The translations under genes and the position numbers were made by a program. DNA of 64,000 bases, taken from the NCBI GenBank assembly GCA_902793405.1, contig CADBDH010000026.1, positions 26,234 through 90,233 of the forward strand, read 5' to 3'. The notes below the pieces were generated by a model. The model saw only the letters and a program-made list of their open reading frames with translations. It was not told where the DNA came from and made no database searches. Below, one piece after another: positions 493-63,459 of this stretch. This stretch comes from an uncultured Bacteroidales bacterium (lineage in GTDB: Bacteria > Bacteroidota > Bacteroidia > Bacteroidales > Muribaculaceae). Position 1 is the first letter of the stretch. Each line of letters starts with the position of its first letter.

Positions 493-536
493 CAGAAACT
501 AAGGACTAGAAACTAAGGACTAGAAACTAGAAACTA
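493..536 (-). repeat. 7-bp-period tract of TAGTTTC/TAGTCCT units starting at a stop codon
   Basis: Read on the minus strand there are six consecutive 7-bp units: TAGTTTC, TAGTTTC, TAGTCCT, TAGTTTC, TAGTCCT, TAGTTTC. The TAG of the first unit is the stop codon of the sugar transferase gene. The same unit types occur at 55693-55741 after surA. Confidence 0.9.
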
Positions 537-1931
537 ATAAGCATTATCCTCGCCCTTGAGGGCGTTCCACACGGTTCGGAAAATGATTTTCAGGTCCATG
601 AAAAAGGTCCAGTTCTCGGCGTACCAGACGTCGTACTCGACACGCTTCTCCATCTGCCACAGCTCCTCGGTCTGTCCGCGGTAGCCTCGCACCTGAGCCC
701 ATCCGGTGATGCCTGGCTTGATGGTGTGTCGCAACATGTACTTGTCGATGAGTTCGCTGTAGAGCTCGGTCTGTGCCACCATGTGGGGGCGGGGACCCAC
801 GATGCTCATTTCGCCGCGCCACACATTATAGAACTGCGGCAGCTCGTCGATGCTGGTTCGGCGCAGGAAGTTGCCGAAGCGTGTTACACGCGGGTCGCCC
901 TTGGTGGCCTGGAGCGTGTCGCTGTCGGCATTGATGCGCATCGTGCGGAACTTGTAGCAGTCGAATGCCTGTCCGCGGTAGCCGGTGCGTTTCTGCACGA
1001 AGAAGATGGGACCTGGCGACGACAGCTTGATGCCGATGGCCACAGGGATGATGACCAGTGGCGACAGGATGAGTGCTATGGTCGACATCACCAGGTCGAA
1101 GGCGCGCTTGACGATGCGGTTGATGGGGTTTTTCAAGGGGTAGGGGTGGACGGCAAGAATGGGGATATCGCCCACCGACTGCAACTCGAACTGGCGAGTC
1201 ACCGTTCGCCCGAACTGCGGAACATAGTAGAAGTCGACCGCATTGTTGTCGGCAATGCGGATCATGCGCGACACGTTCTGGTTGTCCTCGATGTCGGGCA
1301 CGGCGCAGAACATCTCGTCGACCTGATGGGTCTTGACAAACTGCTCCACGTCGTCGAGGGTTCCCTGATAGGCCGCCGATGCCGAACGCGCCTTGGGGTT
1401 GTCGTCGAAAAATCCCACGATGTGGTAACCGTAGCCCATGTCGGCCAGCATCTCGTTGATGAGGCGCACACCCACGGTGCCGCCACCGATGACGATGACG
1501 CGCTTGAAGTTAAAGCCCCTGTTGCGGTACAGCTTGACAAACTGTCGTGAGATGACCCACCATGCCGCAAGCGCGACAAAGAAGATGATGTAGAACCACA
1601 ACAGGCGCTGCCACTGGGCGTCGGCATGTCCCAGAAACGTGGTGAGCGTGACGAAGATACCTGCATGGGTGAGCACCAGCTTGAGTGCCTGGCCGACGAC
1701 CTTCTCGGCATAGAAGACGCGGCGCTCATGCACATTGTTGTAGAAATACAGGCAGACCACCATCGCCACATTGAGCACTAGCCACACGGGCCTGGAATAC
1801 AGCTCATTGCCGGCGGGCAGGGCTTCGCGTTGCCAGTACATGGACGCGAAGAAGGCCAAGTTGACAATCAGCAGGTCGATGACGCTGAATATCCACTTGA
1901 CAAACTGGCCGTATCTGCCTTTGCTCTTCAT
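534..1931 (-). CDS. undecaprenyl-phosphate sugar phosphotransferase (WcaJ/polyprenyl glycosylphosphotransferase family)
   Basis: A 465-residue membrane enzyme expected to transfer a hexose-1-phosphate from a UDP-sugar to undecaprenyl phosphate, the first step of exopolysaccharide or capsule repeat assembly. Four hydrophobic segments lie in the first ~125 residues, followed by a CoA-binding-like Rossmann domain (VIVIGGGTVGVRL, about 146-157) and a C-terminal bacterial sugar transferase domain (from about 275, KRAFDLVMSTIAL). That domain holds the family signatures YKFRTM (about 326-331) and DELPQFYNVWRGEMSIVGPRP (about 362-382). The length fits full-length WcaJ/CpsE-type proteins. No other capsule genes flank it, so it is an orphan or lies at the edge of a locus outside the window. 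The sugar specificity (glucose or galactose) cannot be read from sequence. Confidence 0.88.
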   Translation of the reverse strand: MKSKGRYGQFVKWIFSVIDLLIVNLAFFASMYWQREALPAGNELYSRPVWLVLNVAMVVCLYFYNNVHERRVFYAEKVVGQALKLVLTHAGIFVTLTTFLGHADAQWQRLLWFYIIFFVALAAWWVISRQFVKLYRNRGFNFKRVIVIGGGTVGVRLINEMLADMGYGYHIVGFFDDNPKARSASAAYQGTLDDVEQFVKTHQVDEMFCAVPDIEDNQNVSRMIRIADNNAVDFYYVPQFGRTVTRQFELQSVGDIPILAVHPYPLKNPINRIVKRAFDLVMSTIALILSPLVIIPVAIGIKLSSPGPIFFVQKRTGYRGQAFDCYKFRTMRINADSDTLQATKGDPRVTRFGNFLRRTSIDELPQFYNVWRGEMSIVGPRPHMVAQTELYSELIDKYMLRHTIKPGITGWAQVRGYRGQTEELWQMEKRVEYDVWYAENWTFFMDLKIIFRTVWNALKGEDNAY

Positions 1932-15841: not shown

Positions 15842-15876
15842 TTAGTTGTTAGTTTTTAGTTCTTAGTTTTTAGTTT
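15842..15876 (+). repeat. five TTAGNNN heptads upstream of the GH57 gene
   Basis: Consecutive units TTAGTTG, TTAGTTT, TTAGTTC, TTAGTTT, TTAGTTT with exact 7-bp period, directly before the GH57 start codon (minus gene starting at 15836). Confidence 0.9.
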
Positions 15877-40175: not shown

Positions 40176-40766
40176 ATGAAGTTATACAATGACAAGAGCG
40201 ATGATCAACTCATCACGCTGTATGTCGATGGCAAGAACGAGGCCTTTGATGAGCTCCTGGAGCGTCACAAGGACCGTGTCTTCATGTATATATACCACTC
40301 GGTAAAGAACGAGGAGTTGGCCAACGACCTCTTCCAGGATACCTTTGTCAAGGCAATCACCACGATTAAGCAGGGACGTTACGTCGAGAACGGCCACTTT
40401 GCCGCATGGGTGACCCGCATTGCCCACAACCTGATCATCGACTACTTCCGCCAGGTGAAGAATGAGAACCTGCAGTCGACCGACGATACCGACATCAACA
40501 TCCTTAACCGCAAGGAGCTGTCGGAGTCGACCATCGAGGAGAACCTGGTGACCTCGCAGATTCACAGCGATGTTCGCCGCCTGATCAGGACGCTGCCCGA
40601 GAGCCAGCGCGAGGTGCTCGTGATGCGTTACTACAAGAACATGAGCTTTAAGGAAATCGCCGACACCACCGGCGTGAGCATCAACACGGCGCTGGGCCGC
40701 ATGCGCTATGCGATCCTGAACATGCGTCGCATTGCCGAGGAGCATAATATTGCGCTGACGCTTTGA
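40176..40766 (+). CDS. RNA polymerase sigma-70 family factor (ECF-like)
   Basis: A 196-residue transcription factor with only regions sigma2 and sigma4. Region 2 is at about 23-95 (LLERHKDRVFMYIYHSVKNE...ANDLFQDTFVKAI, then AAWVTRIAHNLIIDYFRQ). Region 4 is at about 130-185 (LRTLPESQREVLVMRYYKNMSFKEIADTTGVSINTALGR reduced: the helix-turn-helix is FKEIADTTGVSINTALGRM). No anti-sigma gene follows, so it belongs to the stand-alone Bacteroidota ECF-like group. The stop codon TGA is part of a TGATGCTCGCT repeat word. Confidence 0.9.
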   Translation: MKLYNDKSDDQLITLYVDGKNEAFDELLERHKDRVFMYIYHSVKNEELANDLFQDTFVKAITTIKQGRYVENGHFAAWVTRIAHNLIIDYFRQVKNENLQSTDDTDINILNRKELSESTIEENLVTSQIHSDVRRLIRTLPESQREVLVMRYYKNMSFKEIADTTGVSINTALGRMRYAILNMRRIAEEHNIALTL

Positions 40767-40914
40767 TGCTCGCTTGCGCGAGCAGCTTAGAGCTTAGGGC
40801 TTAGAGCTTAGGGAGTTTTTAACGCGGATTACGCGAATTGAACGAAGTTATCTGCACTTGCTCGCAGTTTAGGCATTAGAGTTTAGGGAGGCATCCGCTT
40901 TGATGCTCGCTTGC
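40764..40914 (+). repeat. modular intergenic element after the sigma factor gene
   Basis: In order: TGA stop + TGCTCGC with hairpin GCTCGC-TTGC-GCGAGC (40768-40783), four TTAGNNN units (40787-40814), GGATTACGCGAATTGAAC (from 40824), three more TTAGNNN units (40869-40889), GGCATCCGC (40890-40898), and TGATGCTCGCTTGCTCG. This fills the first half of the 350-bp gap before tig; the rest holds the tig promoter. Confidence 0.8.
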
Positions 40915-51180: not shown

Positions 51181-54069
51181 ATGAAAAGGAATCTGTTGAC
51201 TATTGCGATGAGCACCCTGCTGGCGCTCGTGTCGACTGCTGCCCCTGCCACGGCATTGCAGGTGCAGGAGTTTGTGTTGAACAACGGCATGAAGGTGTGG
51301 GTGAATGTGGACCACAGCCAGCCCAAGGTCTTTGGCGCCGTGGTTGTGAATGCCGGCGCCGTCGATTGCCCCAACACGGGCATCGCCCATTACTTTGAGC
51401 ACATCATGTTCAAGGGCACCGACGAGCTGGGCACCGTGGACTATGCCGCCGAGAAGGTCTATCTCGATTCCATCTCGATGAAGTATGACGAACTGGCACT
51501 CACCAGCGATGCCTCGCGCCGCAAGGCCATCCAGCAAGACATCAACCGCCTGAATGTCGCCGCATCGGCGTTCGCCATCCCCAACGAGTTCAACCGCTTG
51601 ACCACGATGTGTGGCGGCACCGAGCTGAATGCGGGCACGTCCTATGACTTCACTTTCTATCACAACACGTTCATGCCCCAGTACATCGAGCGCTGGTGTG
51701 AACTCAACAGTCACCGCTTTATCCATCCGGTCTTCCGCCTGTTCCAAGGCGAGTTGGAAACCGTGTATGAGGAGAAGAACATGTACAGCGACGACCCTGC
51801 GTCGATGATGCTCGAGCAGATCACCAGCAAGTTCCTTGCAGGCACGCCCTATGCCTATCCCATCGTGGGCAGCACCGAGAACCTGAAGAATCCTAAACTC
51901 TCGGAGATGGAGGCGTTTTACAAGAAATATTATGTAGCCTCCAATATGGGTCTGATTCTGTCGGGCGACATCCGTGTCGATGACCTGAAGCCCCTGCTGG
52001 AACGCACCTTTGGCCGTCTGGAAAGCGGCGTGAAGCCCGTGCGCGAGAAGATTGTCGCTCCAGCTATCCAGGGACAGCCTGTCGAGAAGTTCCTGTTCCC
52101 CATGCCCATCATCGGTATGAGTGCCATGCTGTTCCGCGGCCCGTCGGAGTATGATGCCGACGCACCGGCCCTGAAGGTGGCCATGTCGCTGCTGAGCAAC
52201 GATAACAAGACTGGTCTGCTCGATGAGTTGACCAACAAAAACCGCGTCTATGTATCGTTGGCGCAGCACATGGGCTTCAACCAGACCGGATTGCTCATGA
52301 TAGCGGTGGTTCCCAAACTGTTTTGCAAGGTCAAAACCGCCGAGAACCTGTGTCTGGACCAGCTGGGCAAACTGCTCATGGGCGAGTTTACCGACGAACA
52401 GCTGCAGGCCGTCAAGCGGATGATGGTGTATGAAAACGAGTCGTCGCTCGAGACCATCGGCAAGCGCAGTGAGGAGATGGTGGCAGCCATGTCGTCGGGC
52501 CTGTCGTGGGGCGATTACATGAAGCAGAAAAATGCCGTTGCCGACGTCACCCGCGATGACGTCATCAAGGCGGCCCGCAAGTATTTTACCGAAGATTTTT
52601 ACCGTTTCCACAAGAAAAACGGCCGTGTGAAGGCTGAGCAGATTGCCAAGCCCGAGTATACGCCCGTCAAACCCAAGCACAGCGATGATGAGTCGGCTTT
52701 TGCCCGTCATCTGGGCACCATCGATGCCGGCCAGACGCCCCAGCTGCGCTACGTTGATTTTGATAAGGACGTGGTCAAGACGCCTCTTGCCGGCGGCAAC
52801 CGTCTGTATTCCACCACCAATCTCCTGAACGATAACTTCTCGATGATCATCAACTTCCACAAGGGCACGATGCAGGACAAACTTCTTGATGCCGCTGCCG
52901 ACTATGTGGGAGAATTGGGTACCGATTCACTCGATGTCAAGGCCCTGGGTTCGGCTATGCAGGCGCTGGGTGCCAAGCTGCAGATTGTTGCCGACGAGCA
53001 GTCCACCGTGATGGTTCTGCATGGTGAGGACAGCCAGCTGGAGCCCACATTGGACCTGGTGAACCACTTCCTGGAGCACATGAAGGCCGACAAGGAAAAA
53101 CTTGACGATGTCAAGGACGCGGCTGGACCCTCTGAGAAATCCTTCTGGGACGAGAGCGAAGAGGTGTTTGCGGCCCTCGCCAGCAAGGTGATGCATGGCG
53201 ACCGTTCCTCTTTCCTGACCCGCCTGACCGCCAAGGAAATGAAGAAGACCCGTCCAGAGCAGCTCATCGCGTCGTTCAAGCAGCTGTATGACTGCCGTTA
53301 CGACGTGAGCTATACCGGAACCAGAGATGGTGCACAGGTGGCCCAGGCCATCAAGGAGCACCTGCCGCAACTGGCCGGCGTTCAGGAAAACGCCATGCAG
53401 GAGATTCCCTTACAGGCACCCCAGCAGCCCACGGTGTATCTGTTTGACATGCCGTCGTCGCGCCAGACCATTGTGGGCGCTTATCTGCCGCTGGCCGATG
53501 TGACCAGCGACCGTGACCGCGCCCGTTTGCAGATGTGGGGTGAATACTTCGGCGGCGACATGTCGTCGGTGCTCTTCCAGGAGGTGAGGGAATTCCGCTC
53601 GATGGCCTATGCTGCCCAGGGTGTTGCCATGACGCCCCAGCTGGCGCGTTCCACGACGCCCAGCGGCTATATGGCTTTGGTCGCCACGCAGGCCGACAAG
53701 ACGATGCAGGTCATCGGTTTGCTCGACACCCTTTTTAACGACATGCCCGTAAACAAGGGTAATATGCCACTGGCCAAGCTGAACCTTGCCAATGAGATCA
53801 ACAATTCTTATCCCACCTTCCGCGGCATGCCGCTGATCGTGTCGCTGTCGGAGCGCATTGGCTATACACGCGACGCCAACATGGTATTGGGCGAGCAGCT
53901 GTCCACATTGGGCGACGAGGAGATACTGAAGTTCTATCAGGAACGCATCCAGGGCAAGCCCTACCAGCTGATGATTGTGGGCAACGTCAAGAAACTCGAC
54001 CTCAAGGCGCTGGCCCGCTACGGCACCATCGTCAAGGTCAAGAAAGACGAAATCTACAAGACGAAGTGA
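51181..54069 (+). CDS. exported M16-family (insulinase-like) zinc metallopeptidase
   Basis: A 962-residue exported protease. The signal peptide is MKRNLLTIAMSTLLALVSTAAPATA. The inverted zinc motif HYFEH (HxxEH, in IAHYFEHIMFKGTDE, about residues 63-77) is intact, and the third ligand Glu lies in ELETVYEEKNM about 75 residues later. The protein has the expected two homologous halves of ~450 residues; the second half lacks the zinc motif and forms the other side of the clamshell (regions VYLFDMPSSRQTIVGAYLPL and FREVRSMAY-like EVREFRSMAY). It probably degrades short peptides in the periplasm. The TGA stop is part of a TGATGCTCGCT repeat word. Confidence 0.93.
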   Translation: MKRNLLTIAMSTLLALVSTAAPATALQVQEFVLNNGMKVWVNVDHSQPKVFGAVVVNAGAVDCPNTGIAHYFEHIMFKGTDELGTVDYAAEKVYLDSISMKYDELALTSDASRRKAIQQDINRLNVAASAFAIPNEFNRLTTMCGGTELNAGTSYDFTFYHNTFMPQYIERWCELNSHRFIHPVFRLFQGELETVYEEKNMYSDDPASMMLEQITSKFLAGTPYAYPIVGSTENLKNPKLSEMEAFYKKYYVASNMGLILSGDIRVDDLKPLLERTFGRLESGVKPVREKIVAPAIQGQPVEKFLFPMPIIGMSAMLFRGPSEYDADAPALKVAMSLLSNDNKTGLLDELTNKNRVYVSLAQHMGFNQTGLLMIAVVPKLFCKVKTAENLCLDQLGKLLMGEFTDEQLQAVKRMMVYENESSLETIGKRSEEMVAAMSSGLSWGDYMKQKNAVADVTRDDVIKAARKYFTEDFYRFHKKNGRVKAEQIAKPEYTPVKPKHSDDESAFARHLGTIDAGQTPQLRYVDFDKDVVKTPLAGGNRLYSTTNLLNDNFSMIINFHKGTMQDKLLDAAADYVGELGTDSLDVKALGSAMQALGAKLQIVADEQSTVMVLHGEDSQLEPTLDLVNHFLEHMKADKEKLDDVKDAAGPSEKSFWDESEEVFAALASKVMHGDRSSFLTRLTAKEMKKTRPEQLIASFKQLYDCRYDVSYTGTRDGAQVAQAIKEHLPQLAGVQENAMQEIPLQAPQQPTVYLFDMPSSRQTIVGAYLPLADVTSDRDRARLQMWGEYFGGDMSSVLFQEVREFRSMAYAAQGVAMTPQLARSTTPSGYMALVATQADKTMQVIGLLDTLFNDMPVNKGNMPLAKLNLANEINNSYPTFRGMPLIVSLSERIGYTRDANMVLGEQLSTLGDEEILKFYQERIQGKPYQLMIVGNVKKLDLKALARYGTIVKVKKDEIYKTK

Positions 54070-54146
54070 TGCTCGCTGCGCTCGCAAATTAGAGATTAGA
54101 GATTAGTGATTAGTGATTAGTGATTAGGGATTAGGGGGGCATCCGC
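54067..54146 (+). repeat. modular element: stop codon, GCTCGC words, TTAGNNN heptads, GGCATCCGC
   Basis: The TGA stop of the M16 gene is followed by TGCTCGCTGCGCTCGC, AAA, then seven 7-bp units (54089-54137: TTAGAGA x2, TTAGTGA x3, TTAGGGA, TTAGGGG), then GGCATCCGC (54138-54146). 54170-54210 adds an imperfect GCGTCCGCA / TGCGGATGC dyad. Confidence 0.9.
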
Positions 54147-54277
54147 GGTGATGCTTGCTGGTTAGTGAATAGGCGTCCGCATTCTTGTTGAGAGGGAGTG
54201 CGGATGCGTTGTTGTGGCTGTTGTTTGAAAAGCTTGGCGGTTTGGGTTGGCATTTAACAAACATTTTGGGAATTCAT

Positions 54278-55695: not shown

Positions 55696-55741
55696 TTTCT
55701 AGTTTCTAGTCCCTAGTTTCTAGTTTCTAGTTGTTAGTCCT
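55693..55741 (+). repeat. TAGTTTC heptad tract starting at the surA stop codon
   Basis: Seven units with exact 7-bp period: TAGTTTC, TAGTTTC, TAGTCCC, TAGTTTC, TAGTTTC, TAGTTGT, TAGTCCT. It is followed by two TATTAGG-like units (55753-55765). The first TAG is the stop codon. Confidence 0.9.
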
Positions 55742-62343: not shown

Positions 62344-62800
62344 CACTGCTCCTGCCCTCACGCTAAGACTTTATATGTCGGCGAATTAAACTAATTGGCA
62401 TCCGCGCATTTGGGCCTCACGCTAAGACGCGAAGTCGCTAAGTTTTTTCAAACAACTGGAACAACAGACATTGGGTTAAACAACAAGAACAACTTTTTTG
62501 TTTGGGCATCCGCGTTCTTTGGCCTTACGCTAAGGCTTTCATGTCGGCGAATTAAGCGAATTATACTAATTGGCATCCGCGCACACTTGGGCCTCACGCT
62601 AAGACGCGAAGTCGCTAAGTTTTTTCAAACAACCTTAACAACAGACATTGGGTTAAACAACAAGAACAACTTTTTTTGTTTGGGCATCTGCGTTCTTGGG
62701 CCTTACGCTAAGACTTTATTTGTCGGCGAATTAAACGAATTAAACTGATTGGCATTCGCGTACTTTGGCCTCACGCTGAGTTTTTTTCGAACGGCTGAAA
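62344..62800 (+). repeat. 177-bp tandem repeat block in a 579-bp intergenic region
   Basis: GGGCCTCACGCTAAGACGCG starts at 62412 and again at 62589 (177 bp apart) and each copy runs through AGTCGCTAAGTTTTTTCAAA, ACAACAGACATTGGGTTAAA and AACAACAAGAACAACTT to a GTCGGCGAATTA...GGCATCCGCG word. GTCGGCG words are at 62377, 62543 and 62722. A partial third copy (CCTCACGCTGAGTTTTTTTC) follows at 62768. A 117-codon open frame across it only reflects the repeat. One further diverged copy is at 38137-38284. Confidence 0.9.
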
Positions 62801-63336: not shown

Positions 63337-63350
63337 TTCTTGTTATATAG

Positions 63351-63385
63351 TTTAGTGTTTAGAGTTTAGTGTTTAGGGTCTAGTT
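63351..63385 (+). repeat. TTTAGNG heptads upstream of the DUF3127 gene
   Basis: Five 7-bp units: TTTAGTG, TTTAGAG, TTTAGTG, TTTAGGG, TCTAGTT, starting 15 bp upstream of the start codon of the minus-strand gene. Confidence 0.85.
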
Positions 63386-63393
63386 TCAAAATG

Positions 63394-63459
63394 ATGGCGG
63401 ATGCCTCTCTAAACTCTAACCACTAAACTCTAACCTGCGAGCAAAGCTCGCATGAATTA
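63394..63459 (-). repeat. modular element after the PepD stop codon
   Basis: On the minus strand: TAA stop (63459-63457), then hairpin GCGAGC-TTT-GCTCGC (63451-63437), then TTAG heptads AGGTTAG, AGTTTAG, TGGTTAG, AGTTTAG (63436-63409), then GAGGCATCCGCC. Same order as after the M16 gene. Confidence 0.85.

Follow-up and report, generated by a model that had tools for sequence, protein, structure and literature searches.

Heptad arrays and a constant 3′ word at gene edges in an uncultured rumen Bacteroidales genus: a possible dispersed non-coding repeat

The window analysed in this study is a 64,000-nucleotide (nt) stretch of contig CADBDH010000026.1 from an uncultured Bacteroidales bacterium, whose genome (3.19 Mb) is designated G000. 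It contains three genes followed by the same non-coding modules: GCTCGC words, a run of TTAGNNN heptads and the nine-base word GGCATCCGC. An earlier interpretation, made from the nucleotide sequence alone (the sequence-only reading), had placed these modules, in the same order and in sense orientation, behind the stop codons of an M16 peptidase gene, a sigma factor gene and a gene named pepD, and they are present there as stated. The heptads recur in many genomes of the same genus, lying mostly in gaps between genes in the four species sampled, and the module may be one form of a dispersed repeat.

The M16 gene (51181-54069; Pfam PF05193/PF00675) ends with a stop codon at 54067-54069 of the plus strand. 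The two GCTCGC words behind it (54070-54086, plus strand; the words start at 54071 and 54080) form a direct repeat, from which a stem is impossible. A sense heptad array of the dialect TTAG[ATG]GA, with seven TTAG cores, begins 19 nt past the stop codon (54089-54134, plus strand) and is followed by GGCATCCGC at 54138-54146 of the same strand. A long stable hairpin was predicted by folding downstream of the array (54168-54213, plus strand), and this would be the likelier terminator stem of the M16 gene.

The ECF-type sigma factor gene (40176-40766, plus strand; recognized by a protein domain search) ends with a stop codon at 40764-40766, which is followed by a perfect hairpin, TGCTCGC..GCGAGCA (40767-40784; found by pairing and folding), adjoining a sense heptad array of the dialect TTAG[AG]GC (40787-40811). 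The modules do not form the single unit that had been assumed at this site, since there is a second sense array (40869-40886), located behind a lone GCTCGC, and only this one is followed by GGCATCCGC (40890-40898); all of these features lie on the plus strand. The sequence TGATGCTCGCT, previously taken for a word built around the stop codon, occurs again after GGCATCCGC at 40901-40911 (plus strand), as the head of a further partial unit. It also joins tandem units in a related species, G021, where the junctions have the form GGCATCCGC-ATT[AG]ATGCTCGC; TGATGCTCGCT is therefore the head of a repeat unit lying flush with the stop codon. The sigma factor site folded as one RNA revealed nothing special (z −0.20).

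The gene named pepD, whose product is a fragment of an M20 peptidase with a Pfam match below its cut-off, has its stop codon at 63457-63459 of the minus strand. It is followed on that strand by (i) a hairpin, TGCGAGC..GCTCGCA (63436-63452; pairing and folding), adjoining the array, (ii) a sense heptad array (63409-63433) and (iii) GGCATCCGC (63397-63405). The GC words are thus hairpin arms here and behind the sigma factor gene, but not behind the M16 gene. Before the next gene there is a facing array (63352-63383, plus strand), antisense to that gene. The facing sense and antisense arrays of this gap are predicted to fold into one long RNA hairpin (63349-63459; fold z −6.75), in which 63352-63383 and 63409-63433 are the pairing partners.

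For the comparative analysis an array was defined as at least three YTAGNNN units (loci with fewer than three YTAG cores were scored as absent), and the longest match was kept where matches on the two strands overlapped. The DNA inspected comprised a G000 discovery set of 464 kb (the window together with 20 stretches of 20 kb each), a held-out G000 set of 391.5 kb (855.5 kb with the discovery set) and samples of three further species: G009 (400 kb), G032 (400 kb) and G021 (798 kb). Genes were called with a custom script, giving a coding fraction of 0.84-0.86 with uncertain start sites. Whole-genome counts were made in 101 genomes (species) of this uncultured rumen genus and in 392 other genomes of the order; the comparison material consists of metagenome assemblies, drafts and single contigs. 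The reversed pattern was used as a control.

The modules exceed chance: (TTAGNNN)x4 has 311 matches in G000, counted with overlaps, compared with 33 for the reversed pattern. Across the genus the number of matches ranges from 0 to 469 (median 11), with none in 20 genomes, many of the assemblies being incomplete, and at least 100 in 23. A period scan of the sampled DNA, runs of N included, gave 1264 fourfold 4-mer repeats with period 7 and 14-176 for each of the other periods from 5 to 12. Of 334 middle cores, 320 read YTAG and a single one TCAG, and neither TTAA nor TTGA occurs. GGG is present in 93 of the 980 units belonging to the 45 commonest unit types, and in none of the family B units TTAGTTN (defined below). 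Identical units, and identical 25-mers, recur at many loci.

The samples of the four species contain 218 non-redundant arrays, 208 of which are located in gaps between genes; 3 lie in called genes and 7 at sample edges, and these ten were left out of the gap statistics. Two families were set on the discovery set: family B (YTAGT[TC]N) and family A, which includes every other array. Divergent gaps hold only 7 arrays (3 A and 4 B) against 46.7 expected from their length, and convergent gaps, with 29 A and no B arrays against 25.8 expected, are not enriched. Between co-directional genes, family A is found mainly in sense orientation (79 sense, 17 antisense) and family B in antisense orientation (5 sense, 71 antisense). 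This strand split extends beyond the discovery set, to the held-out G000 DNA (p 1.6e-4), G009 (p 0.0019) and G021 (p 1e-11); in G032, which has one B array only, it was not significant (p 0.27). Of the 84 sense arrays between co-directional genes, 81 have their 5′ edge closer to a gene than their 3′ edge (median 4 nt from the stop codon, compared with 103 nt from the other edge to the next gene), and in convergent gaps the 5′ edge is nearer in 21 of 29. When all arrays with a same-strand gene on their 5′ side are considered, 65 of 113 start within 12 nt of the stop codon, 22 of them overlapping it. Position and strand are therefore strongly non-random relative to gene ends, in agreement with the sequence-only reading.

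The window itself also contains family B arrays. One of them (15842-15873, plus strand) is antisense to the flanking minus-strand genes; two others are exceptions to the strand rule of this family, namely a sense array overlapping a gene end (499-537, minus strand) and a sense array of mixed B/CTAG type, 3 nt behind a stop codon (55699-55737, plus strand). The genes that come next after the M16, sigma factor and pepD sites encode a PPIC rotamase, trigger factor and a DUF3127 protein. A search of the window with the Rfam covariance models gave 0 matches at the gathering threshold.

Stem-loops adjoin many of the arrays. Among sense arrays that begin 13 nt or more beyond a stop codon, a stem lies directly before the array in 26 of 48, compared with 151 of 5175 control positions behind array-free genes; the remaining 22 arrays have no adjoining stem. 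The 26 include four tandem units from a single locus, the 3′ end of the M16 gene in G021, and are thus not fully independent of one another. The stem sequences vary between sites, and the first heptad core usually begins two bases on (after GT, GA, GC or GG). The GCTCGC words are one instance of such an array-abutting stem-loop, which is probably the gene's own terminator stem. The combination of the GC-hairpin form with heptads was detected in 15 of the 101 genomes of the genus and in no control. The layout in which arms, heptads and word are directly joined does exist, but it is a minority form, found at 6 places compared with 83 arrays in the 855.5 kb of G000. We also observed that GC arms precede G000 arrays at 11 places, as 5 inverted and 6 direct GCTCGC pairs, as if one arm flips.

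The word on the 3′ side was analysed in the form GCATCCGC as well as GGCATCCGC. Within 30 nt 3′ of the arrays, GCATCCGC was found behind 15 of 83 arrays in G000, 10 of 79 in G021, 5 of 34 in G009 and 2 of 22 in G032; its reverse complement occurs in the same zone 3, 0, 4 and 1 times, respectively, and neither form was found on the 5′ side of any of the 218 arrays. A pattern of two heptads followed by GCATCCGC within 8 nt gave 832 matches in 40 of the 101 genomes of the genus, compared with 4 for the reversed pattern, so that the heptads and the word do not occur independently at chance level; several heptad dialects precede GCATCCGC among the matches listed. Elsewhere in the order the pattern was found in only 1 of 392 genomes (one match; 3 for the reversed pattern). 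The heptads with the word are thus nearly restricted to the genus. In the 23 array-rich genomes GGCATCCGC has a median of 148 copies, compared with 14 for its reverse, and in the 20 genomes with no array match the values are 29 and 16. Its copy number follows that of the array matches (rho 0.75; rho −0.05 for its reverse). Inverted pairs of GCATCCGC, 20-60 nt apart and possibly forming a stem of their own, were noticed at locus C3 75016-75091 of G000 and at 54139/54200 of the window; they have a REP-like look. A convergent gap of the window (62381-62777) contains approximately 2.2 copies of a 177-bp tandem repeat, which includes CGAATTAAACTAATT, GGCATCCGC and a CGCTAAG-type run, and GGCATCCGC therefore also follows other intergenic repeats.

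The conservation of the arrays was examined in G021, which shares 164 reciprocal best hits with G000 (median protein identity 91.5%). Of 94 shared gaps, 12 have an array in both species, 7 in G000 only, none in G021 only and 75 in neither. Of the 19 shared gaps with an array, 12 thus retain it in G021, in some cases with a different heptad dialect. With place and strand retained, TTAG.GT of G000 is replaced in G021 by TTAG.GC at locus C1 74992, and TTAGGAG by TTAG.GA at C6 6958; behind the M16 gene TTAG.GA is replaced by TTAG.GT. The dialect at C3 149023 is unchanged, the array at C4 76755 is identical, and B remains B in most shared gaps. The number of units varies between orthologous arrays, and those of G021 are only degenerate at C3 115497 and at some B sites, so that absence is partly a matter of threshold. 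In more distant species pairs, the proportion of array-bearing shared gaps with an array in both species was 1 of 5, 1 of 4, 3 of 12, 0 of 4 and 1 of 5, in no case significant. The comparison of orthologous 3′ ends that had been suggested was made for 26 M16 orthologs: G021 has the module, but 24 show none within 260 nt, and the 3′ end in L170 is unreadable. Some of the 24 carry a hairpin followed by a T-run at this place, by eye a plain terminator.

A further species, G108, has only one match of (TTAGNNN)x4, compared with 113 of GATTNNN x4. At 15 loci, the separate arrays among the first 30 matches listed, these heptads are sense in 11 cases, all with the 5′ edge nearer to the gene, and antisense in 4, one of them with the 5′ edge nearer; stems at the same 15 loci score at least 7 in two cases and 6.3 in two more. 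GATTNNN arrays are thus placed likewise, which indicates that the placement rule is not tied to TTAG.

The reading we favour, with about an even chance of being correct, is that the module represents a variant of a dispersed, non-autonomous gene-edge repeat of this genus, which is copied and rewritten, and tolerated where it lies. The body of the repeat is a run of YTAGNNN units that begins, behind genes, where functional sequence stops (at the stop codon or at the base of a stem-loop) and that in a minority of cases ends in GGCATCCGC. The TTAG strand is usually directed away from the abutted gene, which makes arrays sense where they follow a gene and mostly antisense where they precede one. 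Copies may have been spread by recombination or by a borrowed enzyme, units may be gained, lost and rewritten by slippage and by conversion between arrays, and the repeat, being presumably near neutral, would be tolerated at places where no gene or promoter is disrupted. The sequence-only reading had left the choice between a mobile element and a selected 3′-untranslated-region module; of these the dispersed non-coding element agrees better with match numbers of 0 to 469 between species and with the low sharing between distant species, whereas the selected module is less likely, given the 20 of 101 species that have no (TTAGNNN)x4 match (many of the assemblies being incomplete) and the similar heptads found antisense before genes. 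Moreover, the repeat is probably not essential, because it is absent from a fifth of the species.

Several observations weigh against this reading. Of the 96 family A arrays between co-directional genes, 17 are antisense, and the anchoring of antisense arrays in co-directional gaps is unclear (5′ edge nearer in 53 of 88, p 0.07). A copying enzyme was sought by copy-number correlation across the 101 genomes, and none was identified: the correlation of array matches is weak with Y1_Tnp (rho 0.20, p 0.04; rho 0.29 in the 70 genomes at least 85% complete) and not positive with RVT_1 (rho −0.10), which has no match in G000. Most arrays lack the word, and the array-rich genomes G027 and G087 have no match of array plus word, while G002, G025, G117, G120 and G121 hold 93-141 copies of GGCATCCGC with few or no TTAG arrays. 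In the samples of the four species, GCATCCGC has 90 copies in gaps, only 32 of which stand behind heptads. Of the other 58, 12 follow a different, AT-rich array (CGAATTAAA..TAATT) and 2 a further AT-rich run, while 44 have nothing before them that the script recognized; the word is therefore common to more than one intergenic repeat. Finally, selection would also yield the places kept in G021.

Plain simple-sequence repeats, produced at gene edges by slipped-strand synthesis with no copying between sites, are a rather unlikely explanation, although slippage would account for the dominance of period 7 in the sampled DNA and for the different unit numbers of orthologous arrays. It is also in line with a published case, in which unrelated heptads obey the same strand rule and slippage is cited for 7-nt units (Rehm 2015, PMC4692102). 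The fixed word argues against slippage alone, which cannot create the GGCATCCGC present behind heptads of several dialects (among the matches listed) in 40 of the 101 genomes; nor does slippage agree with the identical units and 25-mers at many loci.

It is also unlikely, and slightly more so, that the stem-loop and heptads constitute a selected 3′-end module that forms or protects the end of the transcript. The hairpins abutting 26 of 48 arrays speak for such a role, as does the stem at C3 115497, the pairing of which is kept in G021 (by eye, with one two-sided change and two one-sided ones, all of which preserve the pairs), and the hairpin-plus-T-run that some M16 orthologs have at the same place. 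Against it, 65 of 113 sense arrays begin so close to the stop codon that there is no space for an intervening stem, convergent gaps are not enriched (29 arrays, 25.8 expected), similar heptads also stand before genes, and 20 of 101 species have no match. The heptads also seem to provide no U-tract: the 8 nt after strong 3′ stems contain an average of 2.7 T with an array (only 3 cases) compared with 3.9 after 122 plain stems.

More doubtful is a strand-aware process that would add heptads in the 5′ to 3′ direction, working outward from where expressed units end, whatever the heptad sequence. The runs would start at a stop codon or at the foot of a terminator hairpin, the places expected for RNA 3′ ends left by trimming or termination, and an antisense run on the 5′ side would start at a cDNA-like 3′ end. 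Since YTAGNNN, GATTNNN and the published GGGNATC heptads share one rule, placement would be a property of the process and not of the repeat.

We consider it improbable that the repeat is a passenger of a Y1 transposase (HUH, RAYT/IS200-like) with the hairpin and word serving as a REP-like target or end. Y1_Tnp was detected in 92 of the 101 genomes, including all 23 with at least 100 array matches, compared with 30 of 36 with at most 5, but the correlation is weak (rho 0.20), G070, which is 91% complete, lacks a Y1_Tnp match despite 95 array matches, and the hairpin sequences vary from site to site.

A frame-independent translation stop is the least probable of the functions considered. YTAG repeated every 7 nt places a stop in each frame within 21 nt, which could insulate neighbouring genes, and TAG ends 24 of the 47 genes with a sense array within 12 nt (G000, G009 and G032), compared with 161 of 1209 genes overall; 15 of these 24 TAG stops are the array's own TAG, partly by definition. 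Nevertheless, TTAA and TTGA, which would keep the stop, are absent among the 334 middle cores, 320 of which are YTAG, and the GGGNATC heptads of other bacteria, which have the same placement, hold no stops, as read from the unit.

The remaining candidates were rejected. UUAG is a known RNA recognition motif (RRM) target, and binding sites of RRM proteins were considered; RRM_1 has no match in G000, and matches occur in 2 of 14 control genomes. Repeats written by telomerase or a reverse transcriptase were dismissed on the lack of an RVT_1 match in G000 and of a positive correlation in the genus, the G-quadruplex as a cause on the small number of GGG units, and selection for any stop on the absence of TTAA and TTGA cores. 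If arrays invaded in one direction, toward the 5′ side, their 3′ edges should be the more decayed and CTAG and TTAG should follow a polar order; neither prediction held: near-core heptads lie one step beyond the array at 65 of 208 5′ edges and 44 of 208 3′ edges, and CTAG comes first in 12 and TTAG in 7 arrays of family A, and in 16 and 18, respectively, of family B (3 ties).

Elements with some of these features are known from other systems. Repetitive extragenic palindromes (REP) and the bacterial interspersed mosaic elements (BIME) composed of them, with their REP-associated tyrosine transposases (RAYT), form hairpins behind genes and exist in many dispersed copies. The genus likewise has hairpins behind genes, dispersed copies and Y1-type transposase genes, but its hairpins vary in sequence from one site to another, and what is repeated is the run of heptads together with the word. 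In having a stem-loop behind the gene (26 of the 48 sense arrays that begin 13 nt or more beyond the stop codon), the sites resemble intrinsic terminators.

The closest parallels are other heptads. In Rehm 2015 (PMC4692102), GGGNATC and GGGGA(C/T)T heptads are described at gene edges in Xanthomonas and Nostoc; they are G-rich and form G-quadruplexes in vitro with a preference for four units. Most are found at corresponding gene pairs in two related species, where their length and sequence vary, and no role in gene regulation could be identified. Like the arrays described here (208 of 218 in gaps), they have period 7, are mostly intergenic, lie within 50 bp of a stop codon on the sense strand or before an open reading frame in antisense, are scarce between divergent genes (here 7 against 46.7 expected) and sometimes overlap the stop. 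They differ from the heptads of the genus, which have a YTAG core and few units with GGG (93 of 980 in the 45 commonest types); paired inverted repeats are mentioned in that paper, but a stem abutting the array and a constant 3′ word were not found in the portions covered. MacGregor 2015 (PMC4679880) reports tandem TAACTGA heptads in Beggiatoaceae and further ones in Cyanobacteria and some Bacteroidetes; in the Guaymas genome they are mostly forward, before start codons, in gaps. This is the strand sense of family B as well (TTAGTTN is the reverse complement of NAACTAA). By contrast, the TAACTGA repeats have a fixed unit and in that genome stand mostly before starts, and neither a 3′-end family nor a 3′ word was found in the portions covered. 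The TAACTGA unit (reverse complement TCAGTTA) is not matched here, with TCAG as 1 of 334 middle cores between YTAG cores.

Gene-edge heptads of distant phyla have so far been read as G-quadruplexes or binding sites. That the same edge and strand rule governs units that are mostly incapable of forming quadruplexes weakens the quadruplex reading of placement, and the shared rule points to a common generating process or constraint. With matches ranging from none to hundreds, a fixed 3′ word and switches of dialect in orthologous gaps, the genus makes such a process testable in close strains. The supposition that no named family has this layout holds only in part: gene-edge heptads and their strand rule are published, whereas the abutment of hairpins and the 3′ word were not found in the portions of these sources covered. 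Judged from those portions, gene-edge heptads are known in kind, and the version in this genus differs in its core, hairpin abutment and 3′ word. As far as our searches of the open literature show, what is new are the YTAG heptads of the genus, the separate dialects they have on the 3′ and 5′ sides of genes, the stem-loops that abut them and the constant word on their 3′ side.

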